Source: Chloroflexota bacterium (GTDB taxonomy: Bacteria; Chloroflexota; Anaerolineae; DTLA01). Taken from it: DNA of 64,000 nt. The notes under the pieces are model-generated. The model was not told where the DNA came from and ran no database searches. It saw only the letters and a program-made list of their open reading frames with translations. Below, in pieces: positions 26,260 through 38,965 of this stretch (within the stretch, counting starts at the first letter, position 1; each line of letters starts with the position of its first letter). The translations under genes were made by a program, and so were the position numbers. The stretch covers positions 1 to 64,000 of the forward strand of contig JADBJK010000073.1 in the NCBI GenBank assembly GCA_014874485.1. Reading direction: 5' to 3'.

Positions 26260-26617
26260 ACCTTTGCCTTCGTCCAAACCGAGCCATTGCGAGAGGCCAT
26301 CGGAGAAAGCCCGCTTTCGCGGCGGGCGCCCGGGTTTCCCGTGTGCGCAACCCGGGCCGACCAGAGGCACCGAGAAGATTCATCAAGAGCCCTTTGCCTA
26401 TTATATCACACTTTTCGCGTCCTGGAACACGGAGTTTTGCGCCATAATGCGCACGTCGGGTGGGAACCCCTGCTATCCGTTCGGGCTGCCTGGGCGCAGG
26501 TCTATCGTATGCCGTTGGAGTGTCCGACCATTGTCATTGCGAGCGAAAGGAAGCCATCCAGTCGGCCGACGACAACCGTTACCTGTCATTGCGAGCGAAG
26601 CGAAGCAATCCCGGCCC
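26260..26617. other. Divergent intergenic region with partial family A repeat
   Basis: No coding signal is seen. Two shortened family A modules lie at about 26530-26612 (ttgtcattgcgagcgaaagg, tgtcattgcgagcgaagcg). The remainder holds no recognisable site apart from AT-rich tatcacacttttcgcg near 26400, which could be part of the lipoprotein gene promoter. Confidence 0.6.
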
Positions 26618-26667: not shown

Positions 26668-27612
26668 ATGCGTAGCACAGCCAAAGCCGTGGGAACGGCT
26701 CCGGGGAAAGTGATCCTGTTCGGCGAGCACGCGGTGGTGTACGGTCGCCCCGCCATCGCCGTGCCTGTGTTTGAGGTGCAGGCGCGGGCCGAGGTCAGCC
26801 TGGGCGAGCCGGGCCAGGGCGTCATCCTGGAAGCCCGCGACCTGGACCTGCGCTATCCCCTGTCGTCCGCGAGCGCCGACGACGCCCTGGCGACCATCGT
26901 GTGGAAAACCCTGGCGCGCCTGGAGATCCCGCCCCAGCCGGATATCCTCATCTCGGTGCAGTCCACCATCCCCATCGCCCGCGGGCTGGGGAGCGGCGCT
27001 GCCGTGTCCACTGCCATCGTCCGCGCGCTGGCCCGCTACTTCGGCAAGCACCTCACGTCCAGGGCCATCTCCGACCTGGTGTACGAGGCGGAGAAACTGT
27101 ACCACGGCACGCCCAGCGGGGTGGACAATACCGTCATCGCCTTTGGCAAGCCGGTGTACTTTGTCCGCGGGCGGACGCTGGAGATTTTCTGGGTGAAGAC
27201 GCCGTTCTTGCTGGCCATCGCCGACACGGGCATCGTGAGCGAGACGAAGGATGTCGTGGCCGACGTGCGCCGCCGCTACGAGGAGAACCTGGGCCGCTAC
27301 GAGTTCCTGTTTGACGAAATCGCCGAGATCGCCTACCAGGGCCGCGGTGCGATTGAGATGGGCGACCTGCCGCGCCTGGGCGAGTTGATGAACCGCAACC
27401 ACGCGGTGCTGCAGGCCATCGGGGTCTCGTGCCCGGAACTGGACCGGCTGGCGCAGGCCGCGTTGGAGGGCGGCGCGCTCGGCGCGAAACTGTCGGGGGC
27501 GGGCCGGGGCGGCAACCTCATCGCGCTGGTTACGCCCGAAACGCGCGGGCGGGTGGACCTGTTCCTGCGACTTGCCGGCGCAAAACGGATCATCATCACG
27601 GAGGTCTCGTAG
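26668..27612 (+). CDS. mvk: Mevalonate kinase
   Basis: A 314-residue GHMP kinase. Motif 1 is PGKVILFGEHAVVYGRPAIA, the ATP loop is IPIARGLGSGAAVSTAIVRA, the catalytic context is YHGTPSGVDNTVIAFG, and motif 3 is GAKLSGAGRGGNLIAL. These are the mevalonate-kinase versions of the GHMP motifs. It phosphorylates mevalonate to mevalonate 5-phosphate. The start ATG has GAGGG upstream. Only 1 bp separates its stop from the ubiX start, and ubiX overlaps ubiD, so the three form one transcript. Confidence 0.93.
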   Translation: MRSTAKAVGTAPGKVILFGEHAVVYGRPAIAVPVFEVQARAEVSLGEPGQGVILEARDLDLRYPLSSASADDALATIVWKTLARLEIPPQPDILISVQSTIPIARGLGSGAAVSTAIVRALARYFGKHLTSRAISDLVYEAEKLYHGTPSGVDNTVIAFGKPVYFVRGRTLEIFWVKTPFLLAIADTGIVSETKDVVADVRRRYEENLGRYEFLFDEIAEIAYQGRGAIEMGDLPRLGELMNRNHAVLQAIGVSCPELDRLAQAALEGGALGAKLSGAGRGGNLIALVTPETRGRVDLFLRLAGAKRIIITEVS

Positions 27613-27613
27613 G

Positions 27614-28174
27614 ATGCGGCTCATCGTGGCCGTTACCGGCGCGTCGGGGGCCATCCTGGCGGCCAAGTTGCTGGAGCAGTTGACCGAGCACGAGACCCAT
27701 CTCATCGTGTCGGACGCGGCCCGCGCCGTCCTTCGGCATGAATTGGACCGCGAGGCCCTGCCCGCCGCGTTCCGCTACGGCGAGGACGATTGGAGTTCCC
27801 CGCTGGCCTCGTCGTCGTTCGTGGCCGACGGCATGGTCATCGTCCCCTGCTCCATGAAGACGCTGGCGATGGTGGCCCACGGGATGAGTTCCAACCTCAT
27901 TGGCCGGGCCGCCGACAACGTGCTCCGCATGGGGCGGCGGCTGGTGCTGGTCCCGCGCGAGACGCCGCTTTCGCTGGCGGCCATTGAGAACATGCGCCTC
28001 GCCAAGATGGCCGGGGCCATCGTCCTGCCGCCGAACATGGCGTTCTACTTCGGCCCCCAGACGCTGGACGACATGGTGGGGTTCGTCGTGGGCAAAATCC
28101 TGGACGCGCTGGGCCTGCCCCACGCCCTGTACCGGCGCTGGGAAGGGCCTGCGACGCTGGAGGACGAGACATGA
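27614..28174 (+). CDS. ubiX: Flavin prenyltransferase UbiX
   Basis: A 186-residue flavoprotein. FMN-binding and catalytic segments are LIVAVTGASGAILAAKLLEQ, VIVPCSMKTLAMVAHG and LVPRETPLSLAAIENM. UbiX joins dimethylallyl phosphate to FMN to make prenylated FMN, the cofactor of UbiD decarboxylases. Its own substrate is thus an isoprenoid product, and its partner UbiD is the next gene, overlapping by 4 bp (ATGA). Confidence 0.95.
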   Translation: MRLIVAVTGASGAILAAKLLEQLTEHETHLIVSDAARAVLRHELDREALPAAFRYGEDDWSSPLASSSFVADGMVIVPCSMKTLAMVAHGMSSNLIGRAADNVLRMGRRLVLVPRETPLSLAAIENMRLAKMAGAIVLPPNMAFYFGPQTLDDMVGFVVGKILDALGLPHALYRRWEGPATLEDET

Positions 28175-29496
28175 GTCTGCGCGAGTTCATTCGCCTGGCC
28201 GAGCAGGCGGGCAGGCTCACCCGCGTGGACCGCGAGGTGGACCGCCATCTGGAACTGGCCGCCGTTGCCGCGGACCTGGACGGGCAGGCGGTGCTGTTCC
28301 GGCGGGTGCGGGGCTACGATACCCCTGTCCTCGTGGGCGTGTGCAGCGACCGCGAGTTGATCGCGCGAAGCCTGGGCGTGGAGCGGCGCGAACTGCTGGC
28401 GGCGCTGGCCCGCGCGCTGGAGCATCCCGTGCCTCCGCCGCTGGTGCCCGACGCGCCCTGCCAAGAAGTCGTGGAGCCGCGCGTGGACCTGGACACCATC
28501 CCCATCCTCACGCACATCCCGAGCGACGGCGGGCCGTACATCACGTCGGGCGTCGCCATCATCCGAGACCCTGATTTGGGCCGCAACATGTCGTTCCACC
28601 GCCTCATGCAGATCGGCCCCAATCGGTTTGCGGCGCGAGTAGTGGAAGGCCGGGGCACAGCCACCGCGCTCGCCAAAACGGGGGGCCGTCTGGATGTCGC
28701 CATCTGCATCGGCGTGTCGCCTGCGGTGCTGCTGGCCGCCGCCATGTCGCCGCCCAAGGGCGTGGACGAACTGGGCATCGCCCACGCGCTCAGGCCGACG
28801 CCCCTGGTGCGCTGCAAGACCATTGACCTGGAGGTGCCCGCCGAGTCGGAGTTCGTCCTGGAAGGGCGCTTCACAGGCGAATATGCCGCCGAGGGGCCGT
28901 TCATAGACCTGACGGAGACGTGGGACATCGTCCGACAGCAGCCCGTCGTGGAGATTCAGTGCATCACGCGGCGCCGCGACCCCATCTACCACGCGCTGCT
29001 GCCGGGCAAGAGCGAGCACAAGGTGCTGATGGGCATGCCCCGCGAGCCGACCATCTTCGCCGAGGTCTCCAAAGTGGCCGAATGCCTGGACGTGCTCATC
29101 ACGCCGGGCGGCACCTCGTGGCTGCACGCCGTGGTGCAGATTCGCAAGCGGCACGAGGACGACGGGAAGCGGGCGATTGAGGCGGCCTTCCGCGGGCACG
29201 GCTCACTGAAGCATGTGGTCGTCGTGGACGAGGATGTGGACATCCACAACCCGGCCGACGTGGAGTGGGCCATCGCCACGCGGTTCCAGGCGTCGCGGGA
29301 TTTGGTCGTCCTGGCCGACCAGCCCGGCAGTTCGCTGGACCCCTCAGCGCGCCACGTGCCCGGCCAGAAGACGCGCACGGACAAGATGGGGCTGGACGCG
29401 ACCATCCCGTGGCGGGACCACGCGGGCCGACTCCGCAGCACCGAGGAGCGGGCGGAGTTCCGCCGCGTAAAGTACCCGCCCAGTCCTTTGCTGTGA
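28171..29496 (+). CDS. UbiD-family decarboxylase, candidate trans-anhydromevalonate 5-phosphate decarboxylase
   Basis: A 441-residue prenylated-FMN-dependent decarboxylase. Characteristic segments are DLGRNMSFHRLMQIGPNRFA, EFVLEGRFTGEYAAEGPFID, LTETWDIVRQQPVVE and RRRDPIYHALLPG. Known UbiD enzymes act in quinone synthesis, aromatic acid metabolism, or the archaeal mevalonate branch. Coupling to ubiX and to mevalonate kinase points to the last: decarboxylation of trans-anhydromevalonate 5-phosphate to isopentenyl phosphate. The sequence EGPFIDLT, rather than EGPFGEYTGYY, also recalls archaeal members (from memory). A menaquinone-pathway role remains possible. Confidence 0.85.
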   Translation: MSLREFIRLAEQAGRLTRVDREVDRHLELAAVAADLDGQAVLFRRVRGYDTPVLVGVCSDRELIARSLGVERRELLAALARALEHPVPPPLVPDAPCQEVVEPRVDLDTIPILTHIPSDGGPYITSGVAIIRDPDLGRNMSFHRLMQIGPNRFAARVVEGRGTATALAKTGGRLDVAICIGVSPAVLLAAAMSPPKGVDELGIAHALRPTPLVRCKTIDLEVPAESEFVLEGRFTGEYAAEGPFIDLTETWDIVRQQPVVEIQCITRRRDPIYHALLPGKSEHKVLMGMPREPTIFAEVSKVAECLDVLITPGGTSWLHAVVQIRKRHEDDGKRAIEAAFRGHGSLKHVVVVDEDVDIHNPADVEWAIATRFQASRDLVVLADQPGSSLDPSARHVPGQKTRTDKMGLDATIPWRDHAGRLRSTEERAEFRRVKYPPSPLL

Positions 29497-29499
29497 AAT

Positions 29500-29912
29500 T
29501 CGCACCGCAGAGACGCAGAGGGCGCAGAGAATTCAAGGTCGGTCTCTGCGGTCTCCGCGTGCTCTGCGGTGAATTTCGCACCGCACCGCAGAGGGCGCAG
29601 AGGGCGCGGAGAATTCGGGGCAAATCTCCGCGTTCTCCGTGGTCTCTGCGGTGAATGGAGGGCACGTATCACCGCAGAGACGCAGAGGGCGCGGAGGACT
29701 CAATTATTTTTTCTCCGCGTTCTCCGTGGTCTCTGCGGTGAATTTCGTACCGCAGAGACGCAGAGGGCGCGGAGGTCGGGGCACGAAGGGCGCGAAACCC
29801 CACGAAAAGCACGAAAGGGTTTCGCGCCTTTTCGCGTCCTTTCGCGGCTTTCGTGTTCCACATCCGCCGCGCTCTCCGCGGTGAATTTCGCACCGCAGAG
29901 ACGCAGAGGCGA
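29500..29912. repeat. Family B repeat array
   Basis: About five modules of caccgcagagacgcagagg with intervening inverted counterparts such as ctctgcggtgaat. An extra piece, aaaccccacgaaaagcacg and gtttcgcgccttttcgcgtc, is shared with the array at 44.3-44.8 kb. No gene is seen. Confidence 0.85.
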
Positions 29913-29914
29913 GG

Positions 29915-29955
29915 TGCCCATTGCAGCGGACTTGCCCCCAAACGGGAATGCACCC
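29915..29955. mobile_element. Solo end of the MITE-like element family
   Basis: The sequence gtgcccattgcagcggactt followed by gcccccaaacgggaatgcaccc nearly matches the right end of the element at 13188-13453. No second end is present. It lies 14 bp upstream of the -35 box of nfeD. Confidence 0.65.
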
Positions 29956-31339: not shown

Positions 31340-31372
31340 CAGCCCCACCAAACCTATAGGGTGTTGACAACC

Positions 31373-34300
31373 ATGGATGCAGGAGCCAGAGAGAAGTTCC
31401 AAACCCTTTTGCGAGAGTTGTTTGAGTTCAATTACGCCGACCTGGACTTCGGCATCTACCGCATTATGAATCACAAACGGCAGGTTATTGAACGCTGGAT
31501 TGCCAATGACCTGCCGAAGGCCATCGCCGAAGAACTGCGGCAAGGCGCGCTGGCTGAACAGGCACAAGCACAACGGGCGCTGGAAGAAGCCCGCCAGAAG
31601 GTGTTAGAAACCCTGGGCAAGGACGCCATTGACGCCGAAGGCAACCTGGCCGAACAGTACCACAACACCCCCTTGGGCAAAGCGTACCTGGAAGCCCGCG
31701 ACAAGGCCGCTTATGCCCAACCTGCCGAAGCCCTGGAAGCCGCGGTGTACAATCACCTGTATACTTTCTTCAGCCGCTACTACCAGGATGGCGACTTTAT
31801 CTCCAAGCGCCGCTACTCCAAGAAGGAACGCTACGCCATTCCCTACAACGGCGAGGAGGTCTACCTTTACTGGGCCAACCACGACCAGTACTATGTCAAG
31901 ACCGGCGAGTATTTCACCGACTATACCTACCAGGCACCCAACGGCGTGACCGTGCATTTCAAACTCCGGCAAGCCGATGTGGAGCAGAACAACGTCAAGG
32001 GAGAGAAGCGCTTCTTCCTGCCGCGCCTGGACGAAATCATGTGGGACGAGGCCGCCCGTCTGCTCACGATTCCCTTCGAGTTCCGACCGCTGACCGAACA
32101 GGAGAACATCGCCTACGGCCAGAAGAACCAGCAGGAAACGATCCTCGCCAAAGCCGTGACAGAAATCCCCAAGCGCGTCAAGGCCGACGAGGCGCAAGCT
32201 GCGCTGACACGCGAGCGCCGACGGACGGAAAAGGGCGAGACCGTCACCTACCTGGAGCACCACCTGCGTCAGTACACCCGGCGCAACACATCCGACTTTT
32301 TCATTCACAAGGACCTCAAGGGTTTCCTTTCCCGCGAACTGGACTTTTACATCAAGAACGAAGTGCTCAACCTGGACGAACTGGAAGCCGCCGGCGAAGA
32401 CCTAGCCGAAGGCTGGTTCCAACTCCTGCGCCTCATCAAGCGCATTGGCCTGAAGATCATCGAGTTTCTGGCGCAAATTGAAGACTTCCAGAAGATGCTT
32501 TGGGAGAAAAAGAAGTTCGTCACCGAGACCTTTTACGTGGTCACCGTGGGCAACATCCCTGAAGCCTTCTACCCTGAAATTGCCAACAATGACAAGCAGT
32601 GGGAAGAGTGGAAAGCATTGGGATTTATCCTGGAGGAAAACGGACGAGATGTCCGTGATCCCGGGAACGCGGACGTCTCGTCCGCATCGTCCGCATCGTC
32701 CGCATCGTCCGCAAAACACAAAGGCTGGCACTCGCGCGGCTATCTTCCTCACTTCGACGCCGGGAACATTTTCCAATTTATCACCTTTCGCCTGCACGAT
32801 TCGGTGCCGGCTTCCGTCATTGAACAATGGAAGCAAGAACTTCACTGGCGCGAAGGTCTGGCCGCCGACTCGAAGGAAGCCGTGGAACTGCGCAAACGCA
32901 TTGAACACTATGCTGACAGCGGCAAAGGAGCCTGTTACCTGCGCGACGAACGCATCGCCAGCTTGGTTCAGGATGCCTTGAAGCATTTTCATGGCGAGCG
33001 CTACCGCCTCATTGCCTGGTGCATCATGCCCAATCACGTCCATGTCCTGATTGAGATGATGAGCGAATCCCTTTCCGCCATTGTGCAAAGTTGGAAATCC
33101 TACACGGCGCATCAGGCAAACAAAATACTGGGCCGGAGCGGGGCTTTCTGGGGGCCGGACTATTTCGACCGCTTCATCCGCGACGAGAAACATTTCATCG
33201 CCACCGTTGATTACATTCTGCAAAATCCGGTCAAAGCGGGCCTGGTGGACGCCACCGAAAAGTGGCCCTGGGCGGGATATATCGGGACCGCCGGGCACGC
33301 AGACGTCTCGTCTGCGCCACCTGCCCCGCCTGCAAACCACTCCAGCGGACGGGACGTCCGTGATCCCAGAGTTGCTTTTCTCAAAGCCCATCCCACCCTG
33401 CCGCTCGACACGCGCCACTTCCCGCCGGACTTTACCGACCGCCTGCTGGCCACTTTTGACAACCTGGACGAGATGACCGACGGCCTGCTGGTGCACTCCG
33501 AAAACTGGCAGGCGCTCAATCTGTTGCAGGAAAAGTACCGCGAGCGGGTCAAGTGCATCTACATTGACCCGCCGTATAACACGGGGAAAGATGAGTTTCT
33601 CTATCGGGATAGCTACCAGCACTCATCCTGGCTTGCCATGATGTATGACCGGCTGACACTGGGGCGGGAGTGGATGCGGGAGGATGGGGCGATTTTTGTG
33701 AGCATTGACGATAATGAACAATGCAGACTGAAGATCTTCATTGAGGATGTTTTCACTCCGCAAAACATACTAAGAACTGTACCTGTCATAATGAATCTGA
33801 AGGGAAATCAGGATGAATTCGGTTTTGCAGGAACTCACGAGTATGTACTGGTAGGTCTAAAAGACAAACCGAGTGCATCATTGGGCCATTTCCCACTAGG
33901 TGAGGAAGAAATCGAAGAATGGGAGGAAGACGAGTATGGATACTTTAAAAAAGGTGCAAATCTTAAGGCAACTGGTGTAAATGCTCCCAGAGAAAAAAGG
34001 CCTAATTTGTTCTTTCCTATCTACATAACTCCAGAAGGTGAAATCAGGTTAGAACGCCAAACAGAGGACGATATCGAACTCCTTCCTCTTACCAATGGGC
34101 AAGAAATGTCTTGGCGTTGGAGCAAGGACAAGATTCGGCGCGAAGTTCATAACCTTATGGTTGTCAGTGAAAGTGATGGCATATCTATTTACAAGAAGCA
34201 AAGGTCATCAATCGGAGACCTCCCTTCAAGTAAGCCAAAATCGGTTTTGTATAAACCAGAGTACAGTAGTGGCAATGGAACAACCCAGATTAAGAACATT

Positions 34301-35167
34301 TTTGGCAAGAAAGCCTATGATTACCCTAAGCCAGTAGACCTGATTCAGGATTACCTTCGCATAGGAGCTGCGGCAAATGGGTATATTCTCGACTTCTTCG
34401 CTGGCTCCGGCACGACCGGCCACGCGGTCATCAATCTCAACCGCGAGGACGGCGGGCGGCGCAAGTTTATCTTGGTGGAGATGGCGCACTACTTCGACAC
34501 CGTCCTCCTGCCGCGCATCAAAAAGGTCACCTTCACGCCGGAGTGGAAGGACGGCAAACCCAAGCGCATGGCCACCGCCGAAGAAGCCGCGCGCTCCCCG
34601 CGCATCGTCAAGGTCATCCGGCTGGAGTCCTACGAGGACGCCCTCAACAACCTGACCTTTGACGAGCAAAGCGGCCAGCAGGCGCGGCTACGCTTTGGGG
34701 AGGAATACCTGCTTTCCTACATGCTCAAGTGGGAGACGCGCCACAGCGAGACTCTGCTCAACGTGGAGCAGTTGCAGTCGCCGTTCTCCTACCGACTCCA
34801 CATCCACCGCGACGGCGAGACGCGCGCCCGGCCCGTGGACCTGCCCGAAACCTTCAATTACCTTCTGGGTTTGGACGTGCAGACGCGCCGCGTGCTCCCC
34901 TCTCCCGCTGGGAGAGGGGCCGGGGGTGAGGGCCGCTACCTGGTCTATCGCGGCGCCTTGCGCAACGGCCGCACCGTCGCCGTCATCTGGCGCGAGACCA
35001 AAGGCTGGACGGCGGAGGACTATCAGCGCGACGCCGCCTTCGTGGCCGAACACAAACTGACCGAGGGCGCCGACGAAGTCTTCGTCAGCGGCGATTCCTT
35101 CATTCCCGGCGCGCGCTCGCTGGATCCCATCTTCAAGGAACGTATGTTTGCGGGGGTGGAGGCCTGA
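31373..35167 (+). CDS. mod: Type III restriction-modification Mod methyltransferase carrying an in-frame RAYT domain
   Basis: This encodes 1264 residues (1268 if GTG at 31361 is used). An N-terminal region of about 420 residues is followed by a transposase-like insert (about 424-659). The N6-adenine methyltransferase core then has DPPYNTG at 732 and [12 protein letters not shown] at about 1008, that is, beta-class order. The target-recognition region between these motifs (33720-34380) is markedly AT-richer. A second small insertion, [13 protein letters not shown], corresponds to a palindromic repeat at 34896-34931. Without the insert the length would be about 1030, normal for large Mod proteins. 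ATG at 31373 was preferred because AGGGTG lies 9 bp upstream. Confidence 0.9.
32641..33367 (+). mobile_element. REP-associated tyrosine transposase (RAYT) element inside mod
   Basis: The element is bounded by direct repeats CGGACGRGAYGTCCGTGATC (32641-32662 and 33346-33367). Just inside lie palindromes GCGGACGTCTCGTCCGC (32669-32685) and GCAGACGTCTCGTCTGC (33299-33315), followed on the left by a triplicated 9-mer atcgtccgc. The encoded domain (about 445-645 of Mod) has FITFRLHDS, the HUH motif [11 protein letters not shown] (552-562) and a C-terminal [10 protein letters not shown] with the presumed catalytic Tyr at 614. This is the Y1/TnpA_REP family. The start-to-start distance of the direct repeats, 705 bp, is a multiple of three, so the host frame is kept. 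Confidence 0.88.
34896..34931. repeat. In-frame palindromic repeat within mod
   Basis: The sequence ctcccctctcccgctgggag followed by aggggccgggggtgag forms a hairpin and is translated as [13 protein letters not shown] between RRVL and RYLVYRG. It looks like a mobile palindromic element tolerated in a surface loop near the C-terminus. Confidence 0.6.
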
Positions 35168-35169
35168 CC

Positions 35170-35475
35170 ATGAGCGAGAAAATACATATCCCGAAAGAAA
35201 AGGTGGCGGAATTTTGCCGGCGGCATCATATCCGACGCCTGGCGCTCTTCGGTTCCGCCCTGCGCGATGACTTTGGACCGGAAAGCGACATTGACCTGTT
35301 GGTGGAGTTCGAACCGGCGCATGTCCCGGGGCTTTTCGGCATGGCTCGCATGGAGCGCGAATTATCGGCGCTTCTGGGCGGACGCAAGGTGGACCTGCGC
35401 ACGCCCGAAGACTTGAGCCGCTACTTCCGAGAAGATGTTCTCCGCGAAGCCGAGGTGCAGTATGCGCAAGGATGA
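35170..35475 (+). CDS. mntA: MNT-domain nucleotidyltransferase antitoxin (MntA)
   Basis: A 101-residue minimal nucleotidyltransferase. The perfect GSX10DXD motif runs from G28-S29 to D40-I-D42 ([20 protein letters not shown]). MntA enzymes modify the HEPN toxin HepT with AMP groups at a tyrosine and so neutralise it. It starts 2 bp after the mod stop and overlaps hepT by 14 bp, so it is embedded in the restriction-modification operon. Confidence 0.9.
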
Positions 35476-35800
35476 CCGTGTCCGTCTCCAGCATATGCTC
35501 GATGCCGCCCGGGAGGCCGTCGAGTTTGCCCGGCTTGCTCGCCGCCAGGATCTGGAAGAAGACCGCAAACTGACGCTGGCGCTGGTCAAGGATATTGAGA
35601 TCATCGGCGAAGCCGCTTACCAGATTTCCGAGGCGACGCGTCAGCAATTGCCGCAGATTCCCTGGGACGACATTGTGGGAATGCGCCACCGCCTGGTCCA
35701 TGCGTACTTCGACATCAACCTGGACGTTCTGTGGAACACAGTACAGGAGGATCTGCCCCCGCTGATCGCCATATTGCAAAGGGTATTGGAGGGCGCATAA
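35462..35800 (+). CDS. hepT: HEPN-domain ribonuclease toxin (HepT, DUF86)
   Basis: A 112-residue all-helical HEPN protein. The nuclease motif RX4HXY is intact: R75, H80 and Y82 in [14 protein letters not shown]82 is the residue that MntA is known to AMPylate in characterised pairs. ATG at 35462 lies inside mntA and gives the normal family length. The gene ends 3 bp before res. Confidence 0.9.
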
Positions 35801-35803
35801 GCC

Positions 35804-38800
35804 ATGCCGGACGGTATCCAGCAGTATGTCAAACTTGAAAACCGCCTGGTCTTACTGGCCTGGCTCAATAGCCTCTTCGGCTACAAGAAGAACCGCGAAC
35901 TGCTGGAAGACTGCAAGAGCGTGGATGAAGGTTATGGCCCAGATGGGCGCAGTTTTCTTTACCATCACCTGATCGCACGCGGCAGTCAGGTCAACATCCC
36001 CGCCGACGACCTGGCGCGCTACGATGAAAACATCCGCCTGCATCTGGAAAAAATCAACCGCGGCCGCACCGAGCGCATCACATTGCGCTACTTTCAATAC
36101 CTGGCTGCATTGTACACGGAAATCTACCTCGACCGCATCTTCAACGACAAAGCGCAACTGCTGGCTGACCTGAACGCTTTCGTGGCCGGGCGCAACGCCA
36201 ACCGTCTGCCCGTAGAACCGCAGGACGAGCCGTTCACCGAAGACGATCTGACCAAACTGGGCTACTGGATGGCCACCGGCAGTGGCAAGACCCTTCTCCT
36301 GCACTTGAACTACTACCAGTTTCTGCACTACAACCGGAATCCGCTGGATAACATCCTGCTCATCACCCCCAACGAGGGGCTTTCTGATCAGCACTTGCGG
36401 GAACTGGAACTTTCGGGCATTCCGGCCCGGCGCTTTGATCTGAATCAAAGCAGCGCCTTCCGCACGCCGAACGAAGTGCAGGTACTGGAGATCACCAAAT
36501 TGGTGGAGGAGAAGCGGGGCGGTGGCGTGAGCGTGCCGGTAGAAGCCTTTGAGGGGCGCAACCTGATTTTCGTGGACGAGGGGCACAAGGGCGCTGGCGG
36601 AGAAGCCTGGCGGGGCTACCGCGACGCCCTGGGAAAGACCGGCTTCACCTTTGAATACAGCGCCACCTTCGGCCAGGCCCTTTCTGCCGCCGGAGATGAC
36701 GAACTCACCAAAGAATACGGCAGAGCCATCGTCTTTGACTACTCCTACCGCTACTTCTACGGCGACGGCTTCGGGAAGGACTTTCGCATCCTCAACCTGC
36801 GGGATGATACGAACGAAGAGCAAACCCACATCCTGCTTTTGGGCAACCTGCTTTCGTTCTACGAGCAACTGCGCCTGTACGAAGAACATGGGGACGAACT
36901 GCACCCCTACAACCTGGAAAAGCCACTGTGGGTGTTCGTGGGCAGCACGGTAAACGCCGTTTATACCGAAAACAAGCGTCCGCGCAGCGATGTGCTGACC
37001 GTGGCGCGTTTTCTCCACAAGGTGTTGCAGGATCGGTCGTGGGCAGAGGGCACCATCAAGAACCTGTTGGCGGGCAAGAGCGGTTTGCGCGCGCCCGATG
37101 GTTCGGATGTGTTCCTGGAACGCTTCAAGTACCTGAGCGAACTGGGGGAAACGCCGCAAGCGCTCTACGCCGATATCCTTCAACGCATCTTGCACGCGCC
37201 GTCTAGCGGGGGCTTGCACCTGGCCGACATCCGCGGCAGTCAGGGCGAGATTGGGCTCAAGGCCGCCGGGAGCGATGAGTACTTTGGCGTCATCTACATT
37301 GGCGACACCTCGGCCTTCAAGAAACTGGTGGGCGAACAGGCCCCGGAAATCACCCTTGAGGAAGAAGCCATCCGTGGCTCGCTCTTTGACGACATCAACC
37401 GGCCGGACTCCCGCATCCATGTACTGATCGGCGCCAAGAAATTCATGGAAGGCTGGAACTCCTGGCGTGTGACCAACATGGGCCTCTTGAACATCGGCCG
37501 GCAAGAAGGCTCCCAGATCATCCAGCTCTTCGGCCGCGGCGTGCGCCTGAAGGGCAAGGAGATGAGCCTGAAGCGCAGCACGGCGCTGCCGGGCGAACAT
37601 CCCAGGAACATCAAAATCATGGAAACCTTGAACATCTTCGCCGTGCGCGCCAACTACATGGCCCAATTCCGGGAATACCTGGAGCGCGAAGGCGTGGAGA
37701 CCGAGCCGATTATTGAATTGCCCCTCTTCACCTGGATCAACCAACCGGCGATCCAGCGAGAACTGGTCGTGCCTCGTGTGCCGGAGGACCGGTCTTTCCA
37801 CGAGCAGGCGCTGCTCATCCTGGAAAGGGATGACGAACAGGACAAGGGCGTTCACGTGCGGGTGGACATTTCGGTCAAAGTGCAGGCTATGGAAAGCACG
37901 GTCCTCGGCTTGCACACCGCCACCGTGCAAGCCGGCGTCGCTAGTCGCATACCGGACGAAAGCCTGGCACTGGTGGACTGGGAACAGGTCTATCTGGATC
38001 TTCTGGACTACAAAACGCGCAAGGGCTGGCGCAACCTGGTCCTCCGCCCGGAAACCCCGCGGCAACTGATGGGGCGAATCAATTACACCCTCATCGCCGA
38101 CAAGGCAACCTTTGAGCCACGAACCTTTGCGGCACGCCAGCGCTTGCAAGAAGCGGTGACTGCCATCCTGTGCAAGTACATGGACACCTTCTACCGGCGT
38201 CGCCGGGAGCGCTGGGAAACCCAGGTCATGGAGTATCGCCCACTGGACGAGCGTGACCCCAACCTGAGCTTTAACCGCGACATGGTCCGCGAAGGTCGGC
38301 CTGCTTATGTGGTGCAGGTGCGGCGCTCCGATAAGGAGCTCATCGAAACCATCCGCAAACTCCTGGACCAGGCTGAGCGCCTGTATCGGGAGGAGAACCA
38401 GGGGTTGCCACGCATCACCTTCGACCGCCACCTGTATCTGCCCCTATTGGTGGAGAAGACCGATGCCCTCAAGAGCATCCCGCCAGCCCTGACGGAGAGC
38501 GAGGCACAATTCGTGCACGACCTCAAAGCCTATTGGGAAGCCGAGAAAGACCGTTCCCTGGCCGGAAAGGAAGTGTTCCTCCTCCGCAACCTGAGCCGGG
38601 GCAAGGGCATCGGCTTCTTTGAGGCGCGGGGCTTTTACCCGGATTTCATCCTCTGGGTGCTGGATGGTCAGGCTCAGCGCATCATCTTTGTGGAACCACA
38701 CGGCATGCTGCACGCCAAGGCGTACACCCACGATGAAAAGGCGCGTTTGTGGGAACGCCTGTCGGAGATGGCAGGGGAGATTGGGAGACGTAGCAGGAAG

Positions 38801-38965
38801 AAGGACGTATCTTTGGATGCGTTCATCATTTCGGCCACGCCATATAACGAGCTTTACGAACATTATGAGGATGGGACATGGACCCGCGAGAAGTTTGCCG
38901 AAAGGCACATTCTCTTCCAAGAGCGTTTGACAGAGTACAATTACATAAGGATACTGTTTAAGTAA
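35804..38965 (+). CDS. res: Type III restriction enzyme Res subunit
   Basis: A 1053-residue superfamily 2 helicase-nuclease. Walker A lies in WMATGSGKTLLLHL (about 157), motif II is VDEGHKG (about 257), motif VI is QLFGRGVRLKG (about 577), and a C-terminal nuclease-like segment is GFYPDFILWV ... IIFVEPHG (about 945-970). The last part would be PD-(D/E)XK with His in place of the usual Lys. It forms the endonuclease complex with Mod. It starts 3 bp after hepT, so mod-mntA-hepT-res is one operon. Confidence 0.92.
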   Translation: MPDGIQQYVKLENRLVLLAWLNSLFGYKKNRELLEDCKSVDEGYGPDGRSFLYHHLIARGSQVNIPADDLARYDENIRLHLEKINRGRTERITLRYFQYLAALYTEIYLDRIFNDKAQLLADLNAFVAGRNANRLPVEPQDEPFTEDDLTKLGYWMATGSGKTLLLHLNYYQFLHYNRNPLDNILLITPNEGLSDQHLRELELSGIPARRFDLNQSSAFRTPNEVQVLEITKLVEEKRGGGVSVPVEAFEGRNLIFVDEGHKGAGGEAWRGYRDALGKTGFTFEYSATFGQALSAAGDDELTKEYGRAIVFDYSYRYFYGDGFGKDFRILNLRDDTNEEQTHILLLGNLLSFYEQLRLYEEHGDELHPYNLEKPLWVFVGSTVNAVYTENKRPRSDVLTVARFLHKVLQDRSWAEGTIKNLLAGKSGLRAPDGSDVFLERFKYLSELGETPQALYADILQRILHAPSSGGLHLADIRGSQGEIGLKAAGSDEYFGVIYIGDTSAFKKLVGEQAPEITLEEEAIRGSLFDDINRPDSRIHVLIGAKKFMEGWNSWRVTNMGLLNIGRQEGSQIIQLFGRGVRLKGKEMSLKRSTALPGEHPRNIKIMETLNIFAVRANYMAQFREYLEREGVETEPIIELPLFTWINQPAIQRELVVPRVPEDRSFHEQALLILERDDEQDKGVHVRVDISVKVQAMESTVLGLHTATVQAGVASRIPDESLALVDWEQVYLDLLDYKTRKGWRNLVLRPETPRQLMGRINYTLIADKATFEPRTFAARQRLQEAVTAILCKYMDTFYRRRRERWETQVMEYRPLDERDPNLSFNRDMVREGRPAYVVQVRRSDKELIETIRKLLDQAERLYREENQGLPRITFDRHLYLPLLVEKTDALKSIPPALTESEAQFVHDLKAYWEAEKDRSLAGKEVFLLRNLSRGKGIGFFEARGFYPDFILWVLDGQAQRIIFVEPHGMLHAKAYTHDEKARLWERLSEMAGEIGRRSRKKDVSLDAFIISATPYNELYEHYEDGTWTREKFAERHILFQERLTEYNYIRILFK

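Follow-up and report, generated by a model that had tools for sequence, protein, structure and literature searches.

Does a bacterium with a mevalonate kinase gene next to genes for UbiX and UbiD make its isoprenoids by the archaeal mevalonate pathway? This pathway used to be regarded as nearly confined to Archaea. The three genes lie in a stretch of 64,000 nucleotides from a Chloroflexota bacterium (the window), which belongs to genome G000, a draft assembly of 3.74 Mb in 122 contigs (completeness 95.7%, contamination 3.0%). The original prediction of an archaeal-type isoprenoid route in a bacterium is supported by the genes for both subunits of aconitase-X (AcnX) and for isopentenyl phosphate kinase (IPK), by the membership of the UbiD in the clade of archaeal anhydromevalonate-phosphate decarboxylases (AMPD) and by the absence of Dxr. 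With a probability of roughly 0.88, the operon would code for the enzymes of two steps of this pathway and for the supply of its cofactor.

Gene arrangement in the window

The mevalonate kinase gene (MVK; 26668-27612, + strand) starts with ATG at 26668 and ends with TAG at 27610-27612. Its product reaches 249 bits with the equivalog model TIGR00549 (cut-off 163), and mevalonate kinases are the nearest solved chains. The gene of the flavin prenyltransferase UbiX (27614-28174, +; TIGR00421, 187 bits, cut-off 108.9; NF004685 over cut-off; PF02441) starts with ATG at 27614. Its stop codon is contained in ATGA at 28171-28174 together with the start codon of the third gene, coding for a UbiD-family decarboxylase of the AMPD type (28171-29496, +; TIGR00148, 382 bits, cut-off 244.85), whose stop codon ends at 29496. 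The spacing described before, a 1-bp gap and a 4-bp overlap, was exact when read from the sequence, with all three genes on the + strand. In a genus mate (G038, locus L165) the run is kept contiguous and co-directional, with identities of 94%, 88% and 87% for MVK, UbiX and UbiD.

Genes for a solute-binding protein, a glycerate 2-kinase and a glycosyltransferase were found upstream of and divergent from the operon, and a gene for an NfeD-type protein downstream. An Rfam search for RNA elements in the operon gave zero matches. By repeat analysis, two TGTCATTGCGAGCGAAGCGAAGCAATCC-type interspersed repeats (TCATTGCGAGCGAAGCGAAGCAATCC) are located upstream of MVK at 26532-26611; they probably play no part in the function. 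Five ACCGCAGAGACGCAGAGG-type copies with inverted arms, similar to the repeats before MVK, follow the UbiD gene at 29486-29917.

Further downstream, a type III restriction-modification Mod gene (31361-35167, +) codes for a PF01555 domain at amino acids 730-1043 and for an in-frame Y1 transposase/RAYT-like domain (PF01797) at amino acids 546-619. REP-like palindromes flank the latter at 32641-32684 and 33291-33367, and it seems that a transposase was inserted into the Mod gene with the reading frame unbroken. Between this gene and a ResIII restriction gene (35804-38965), a pair of the nucleotidyltransferase/HepT-like toxin-antitoxin type is encoded at 35170-35800 (+).

The UbiD and its partner genes

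Among the matches listed, the closest homologues of the window UbiD from named genomes belong to Anaerolineae/Chloroflexi (55-70% identity), followed by Bathyarchaeota (mostly 55-58%); identities to Thermoplasmata, Asgard and DPANN archaea are 43-54%. A tree of 98 sequences was built with IQ-TREE, its archaeal sample being the best 80 matches; in it, 26 Chloroflexota UbiDs form one clade (SH-aLRT 99). This clade is joined to six archaeal UbiDs, from Bathyarchaeota and one Thermoplasmata (SH-aLRT 96). HmfF and six other bacterial UbiDs are placed on a separate side (SH-aLRT 99), long branches making the outgroup root less certain. The name AMPD clade is used here for a tree that contains no AMPD of demonstrated activity (A. 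pernix, M. mazei) as anchor. The phylogeny agrees with the original prediction, as the UbiD falls among archaeal proteins of the AMPD type, next to Bathyarchaeota and apart from the other UbiDs tested. The UbiD of one Chloroflexota genome (G156) branches elsewhere among archaea, which indicates at least two acquisitions of AMPD-type UbiD by Chloroflexota.

The EGPFIDLT motif highlighted earlier is real, and its signature EGPFID is encoded at 28891-28908 (+). At the sixth position of EGPFxx, every aligned sequence of the AMPD clade has Asp, whereas HmfF and the six other UbiDs examined have Glu (EGPFGE/EGPLAE). EGPFxD is therefore a signature of the AMPD clade and no private oddity of the window UbiD. 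In ferulic acid decarboxylase, the Glu at the matching position is a catalytic residue. Phylogeny and gene context suggest trans-anhydromevalonate 5-phosphate as the substrate of the window UbiD. A second UbiD as the true AMPD was rejected, since the genome contains no other one.

The AcnX subunits and IPK, which had been proposed for a search of the genome, are all encoded on contig C56 by overlapping or adjoining genes. AcnX-L, the large subunit of the predicted phosphomevalonate dehydratase (C56:8318-9613), aligns almost end to end with the type II AcnX of T. kodakarensis (7cnr, E 6e-107) and is closer to this protein than to type-I hydroxyproline dehydratases. The three type-II cluster cysteines are present (sites A, 1 and B: TCTPY, GCPHAS, DTCLV), and the type-I CxC/site C cysteine is absent from the AcnX-L sequence. 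For the A. pernix phosphomevalonate dehydratase, these three cysteines were reported to be required; the criteria for this enzyme and the [4Fe-4S] cluster of AcnX are described in the same work (PMC10040528). The gene of the small subunit AcnX-S (C56:7902-8375; PF01989) overlaps that of AcnX-L and is itself overlapped by the IPK gene (NF040647, 169 bits, cut-off 120), and a gene for an RseP-like protease follows. By inspection, IPK has the Lys, Gly, His, Asp and Thr residues of Table 2 of Dellas et al. (PMC3857490).

Contig C10 carries a gene for HMG-CoA reductase with a gene for an archaeal-type HMG-CoA synthase directly after it. No match to Dxr was obtained at E 0.1 in the draft genome G000, and the MEP pathway was rejected as main route because of this absence. 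Among the GHMP proteins of G000 (homoserine kinase-like, galactokinase, MVK, a phosphomevalonate decarboxylase (PMD) and one further on contig C71), none had a phosphomevalonate kinase (PMK) family as best match. The protein on C71 (locus L010, G000:C71:65746-68970, ORF 1186-2235, +) is GHMP kinase-like with weak similarity to mevalonate kinase, its score of 44 bits falling short of the cut-off.

The distribution of these genes was surveyed in 199 genomes of the class to which the window belongs, each at least 80% complete, counting AMPD-type UbiDs at 49% identity or more to the window UbiD. Of the 199 genomes, 83 have such a UbiD, 74 have a same-type AcnX-L and 69 have both (Fisher p 7e-33); in 29 of these 69 the genes of UbiD and AcnX-L are no more than 1 kb apart and share one strand. 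Owing to this co-occurrence and the gene clusters, a role of the UbiD in the pathway is much likelier than an unrelated decarboxylation.

A very unlikely reading is that UbiD and UbiX form an aromatic or furan acid decarboxylase system (HmfF-, VdcC- or UbiD-like) and follow MVK by chance. Reactions of this kind are commonly served by UbiD/UbiX pairs, and the closest solved structure to the window UbiD is 6h6x/6h6v (E 1e-98), of which we take 6h6x to be the furandicarboxylate decarboxylase HmfF, its PDB name being generic. HmfF shares the UbiD fold and the prenyl-FMN family with the window UbiD as its nearest solved sequence, but it has EGPFGE instead of EGPFID and is located outside the AMPD clade. 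Both the tree and the Glu-to-Asp signature separate this clade from HmfF and the other six UbiDs. Furthermore, the co-occurrence with AcnX and IPK and the gene order are hard to explain by such a function, and the genome has no UbiD besides this one.

A second decarboxylase and the two branches

Contig C68 encodes a further decarboxylase, with 277 bits for TIGR01240 (cut-off 171). A classical diphosphomevalonate decarboxylase (DMD) would have spoken against the original prediction. A homologue of this family is indeed present, but its residues are those of PMD and not of DMD: the protein contains KYWG-A and KGH, with Ala and His in place of the Lys and Met of DMD, and the same was found in the genus mates. 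Its best solved match is 6n0x/6n0y, which we take to be the PMD of Anaerolinea thermophila; 6n0z differs from these by Asn-to-Lys and His-to-Met. That a structure exists for a PMD of Anaerolinea thermophila is stated in PMC9254496. According to Zhu et al. (PMC11052028), the pattern of Chloroflexota is a missing DMD lysine together with the PMD histidine. Among 24 aligned class members (17 further loci fell outside the motif filter), the DMD lysine occurs in none and the histidine is kept in 23, with Ser in G156.

The C68 protein is thus most likely, judged by its sequence, a phosphomevalonate decarboxylase and not a classical DMD. As its substrate-determining residues are those of PMD, it would provide a second route to isopentenyl phosphate. 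It is very unlikely that C68 encodes a classical diphosphomevalonate decarboxylase of a eukaryote-type pathway, with the UbiD serving something else. Such a function would fit the score for TIGR01240 and the Ser-x-Ser residues of the phosphate site (GSGSACRS), which resemble those of DMD in the table given by Dellas et al. (PMC3857490). Of the Ser139/Ser192 positions, for which Ala/Thr are given in the Chloroflexi MPD, the C68 protein keeps Ser in GSGSACRS, the second position being ambiguous. However, the lysine (KYWG-A) and the methionine (GH, not GM) of DMD are both missing, the best solved match is taken to be the PMD of Anaerolinea thermophila, and no phosphomevalonate kinase was the best match of any GHMP protein.

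What was observed is the presence, order and co-occurrence of genes, their family membership and phylogeny, the diagnostic residues and purifying selection; from these, we infer all catalytic activities and the operation of both branches. Mevalonate would come from HMG-CoA synthase and reductase (C10), and MVK would convert it to mevalonate 5-phosphate. The latter would be dehydrated to trans-anhydromevalonate 5-phosphate by the two-subunit [4Fe-4S] enzyme AcnX-L/AcnX-S (C56). UbiX is predicted to make prenyl-FMN and to load the window UbiD, by which trans-anhydromevalonate 5-phosphate would be decarboxylated to isopentenyl phosphate and CO2. PMD (C68) would arrive at isopentenyl phosphate as well, in a single step that uses ATP. 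The AcnX/UbiD and PMD branches would meet at this compound, which IPK (C56) would phosphorylate to IPP; MVK and IPK would be common to both.

AMPD as the only route, as implied by the original prediction, is unsupported, since PMD is also encoded; because of PMD, the AMPD branch may be non-essential or minor in this organism. It is possible, though in our opinion doubtful, that isoprenoids are formed mainly via the haloarchaea-type route (MPD/PMD and IPK) with AcnX/UbiD redundant or rarely used. All three genus genomes (G000, G001, G038) encode a conserved PMD of full length that contains the catalytic Asp motif DAGPN, with a dN/dS of 0.16-0.20, and the MPD and IPK route was proven in the Chloroflexi for Roseiflexus (Dellas et al. 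2013; PMC3857490). On the other hand, AcnX, AMPD, UbiX and IPK are under comparable purifying selection (dN/dS 0.10-0.24; 0.07-0.24 across all seven genes compared), and 70 class genomes contain AMPD without a TIGR01240 decarboxylase over cut-off. Judged by these 70 genomes, relatives can depend on AMPD alone. In the window genus, purifying selection acts on both branches, and we prefer the archaeal-type pathway with PMD as a parallel branch.

AMPD, AcnX and PMD occur together in the three genus genomes. An origin of the contigs with PMD or AcnX from contamination was rejected, because G001 and G038 hold all three as well. In G156, PMD, UbiD, AcnX-L/S and UbiX are encoded within about 5 kb; since the genes are neighbours there, the pairing of AMPD and PMD is no binning artefact. 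A PMD homologue near AMPD and AcnX was also observed at two archaeal loci, L033 (Hodarchaeota) and L087 (archaeon RBG_16_50_20). Thus, dual-route gene sets are not confined to bacteria.

Distribution, known pathways and oxygen

The gene order differs within the class. UbiX-UbiD-AcnXL-AcnXS-IPK form a single run in G012 (L164), and MVK-UbiD-AcnXL-AcnXS-IPK occur in G059 and G085 (L115/L116), an order matched in several genomes of the class and the same as in the Bathyarchaeota clusters L016-L023. The order common with Bathyarchaeota points to a transfer of the pathway cluster between the domains. The two clusters of G000 (MVK-UbiX-UbiD and AcnXL-AcnXS-IPK) look like a split of such a single run.

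Genomes of family f33, e.g. G180 (L163:6230-8008), encode a single-chain aconitase-X of about 590 amino acids adjoining an AMPD-type UbiD, in which the large part precedes the swivel part. The protein contains the three type-II cysteines, has only about 36% identity to AcnX-L of G000 and is possibly a fused phosphomevalonate dehydratase with unusual domain order. A MAG labelled Deltaproteobacteria (L079) carries UbiD, AcnX-L, AcnX-S, UbiX and IPK in one run; its UbiD groups with archaeon RBG_16_50_20, by either a separate transfer or misbinning.

Dxr was found in one of the 199 class genomes. The TIGR01240 decarboxylase was detected in 96, only 13 of which have AMPD too, a strong mutual avoidance (p 1.6e-15). 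All three genomes of the window genus are among these 13.

The archaeal modified mevalonate pathway, on which Hayakawa and co-workers are said to have reported in 2018 for Aeropyrum pernix, comprises MVK, AcnX-L/S, UbiD and IPK like the window genome. The bacterial host, UbiX inside the operon and the parallel PMD are different. Both key enzymes of Ca. Promineifilum breve (AcnX and AMPD) were reportedly shown to be active by Kanno and co-workers in 2024. The archaeal mevalonate pathway was reported from this member of the Chloroflexota by Kanno et al. (2024, Appl Environ Microbiol 90:e0110624, as cited in PMC13001223). Hence, the implied novelty of the pathway is smaller, given this earlier work in the phylum; what is added here is the spread through the class and the dual route. 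Judged by the relatives found here, Ca. Promineifilum breve is of the same phylum as the window genome. Both have AcnX (phosphomevalonate dehydratase) and AMPD (UbiD) as pathway-specific enzymes, and as far as can be told their lineages differ. Set beside this organism, as far as the citation goes, the window genome also has PMD and the split into MVK-UbiX-UbiD and AcnXL-AcnXS-IPK, and so do its close relatives.

The route of Roseiflexus castenholzii and Anaerolinea thermophila (PMC3857490) resembles the window genome in IPK, in a PMD-like decarboxylase and in that no PMK or Dxr was detected. It is without the AcnX/UbiD branch, whereas the window genome encodes both. No earlier description of the class-wide spread, the route exclusion or dual-route bacteria was found, which is weak evidence as the literature covered did not include the text of Kanno et al. 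(2024). The earlier report concerned one uncultured Chloroflexota bacterium; here, archaeal pathway genes were detected in about 40% of the sampled genomes of a whole bacterial class. The near-exclusion with PMD and the few dual-route genomes offer a direct way to study what makes lineages change their isoprenoid route and whether oxygen is the deciding factor.

AcnX ([4Fe-4S]) and UbiD (prenyl-FMN) are expected to be oxygen-sensitive, and PMD costs one more ATP (PMC11052028). A strong match to COX1 (heme-copper oxidase) was obtained for 69 of 83 PMD-only genomes versus 27 of 70 AMPD-only genomes. At family level the means are 0.77 and 0.19, respectively (p 2e-4), with families not being independent; f13, f19 and f33 are counter-examples. 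The link between PMD and oxidase is a correlation with clear exceptions and incompletely controlled kinship. Strictly anaerobic archaea relying on the PMD route alone exist (PMC11052028), and oxygen is therefore not the whole story. The window genome itself has only a weak COX1-type match. Tentatively, the two branches might alternate with oxygen or redox state, the ATP-saving, presumably oxygen-sensitive AcnX/UbiD branch with the ATP-using, presumably oxygen-tolerant PMD. If true, the class-wide route exclusion and the link of PMD with heme-copper oxidase would be the evolutionary trace of a trade-off between oxygen and ATP.
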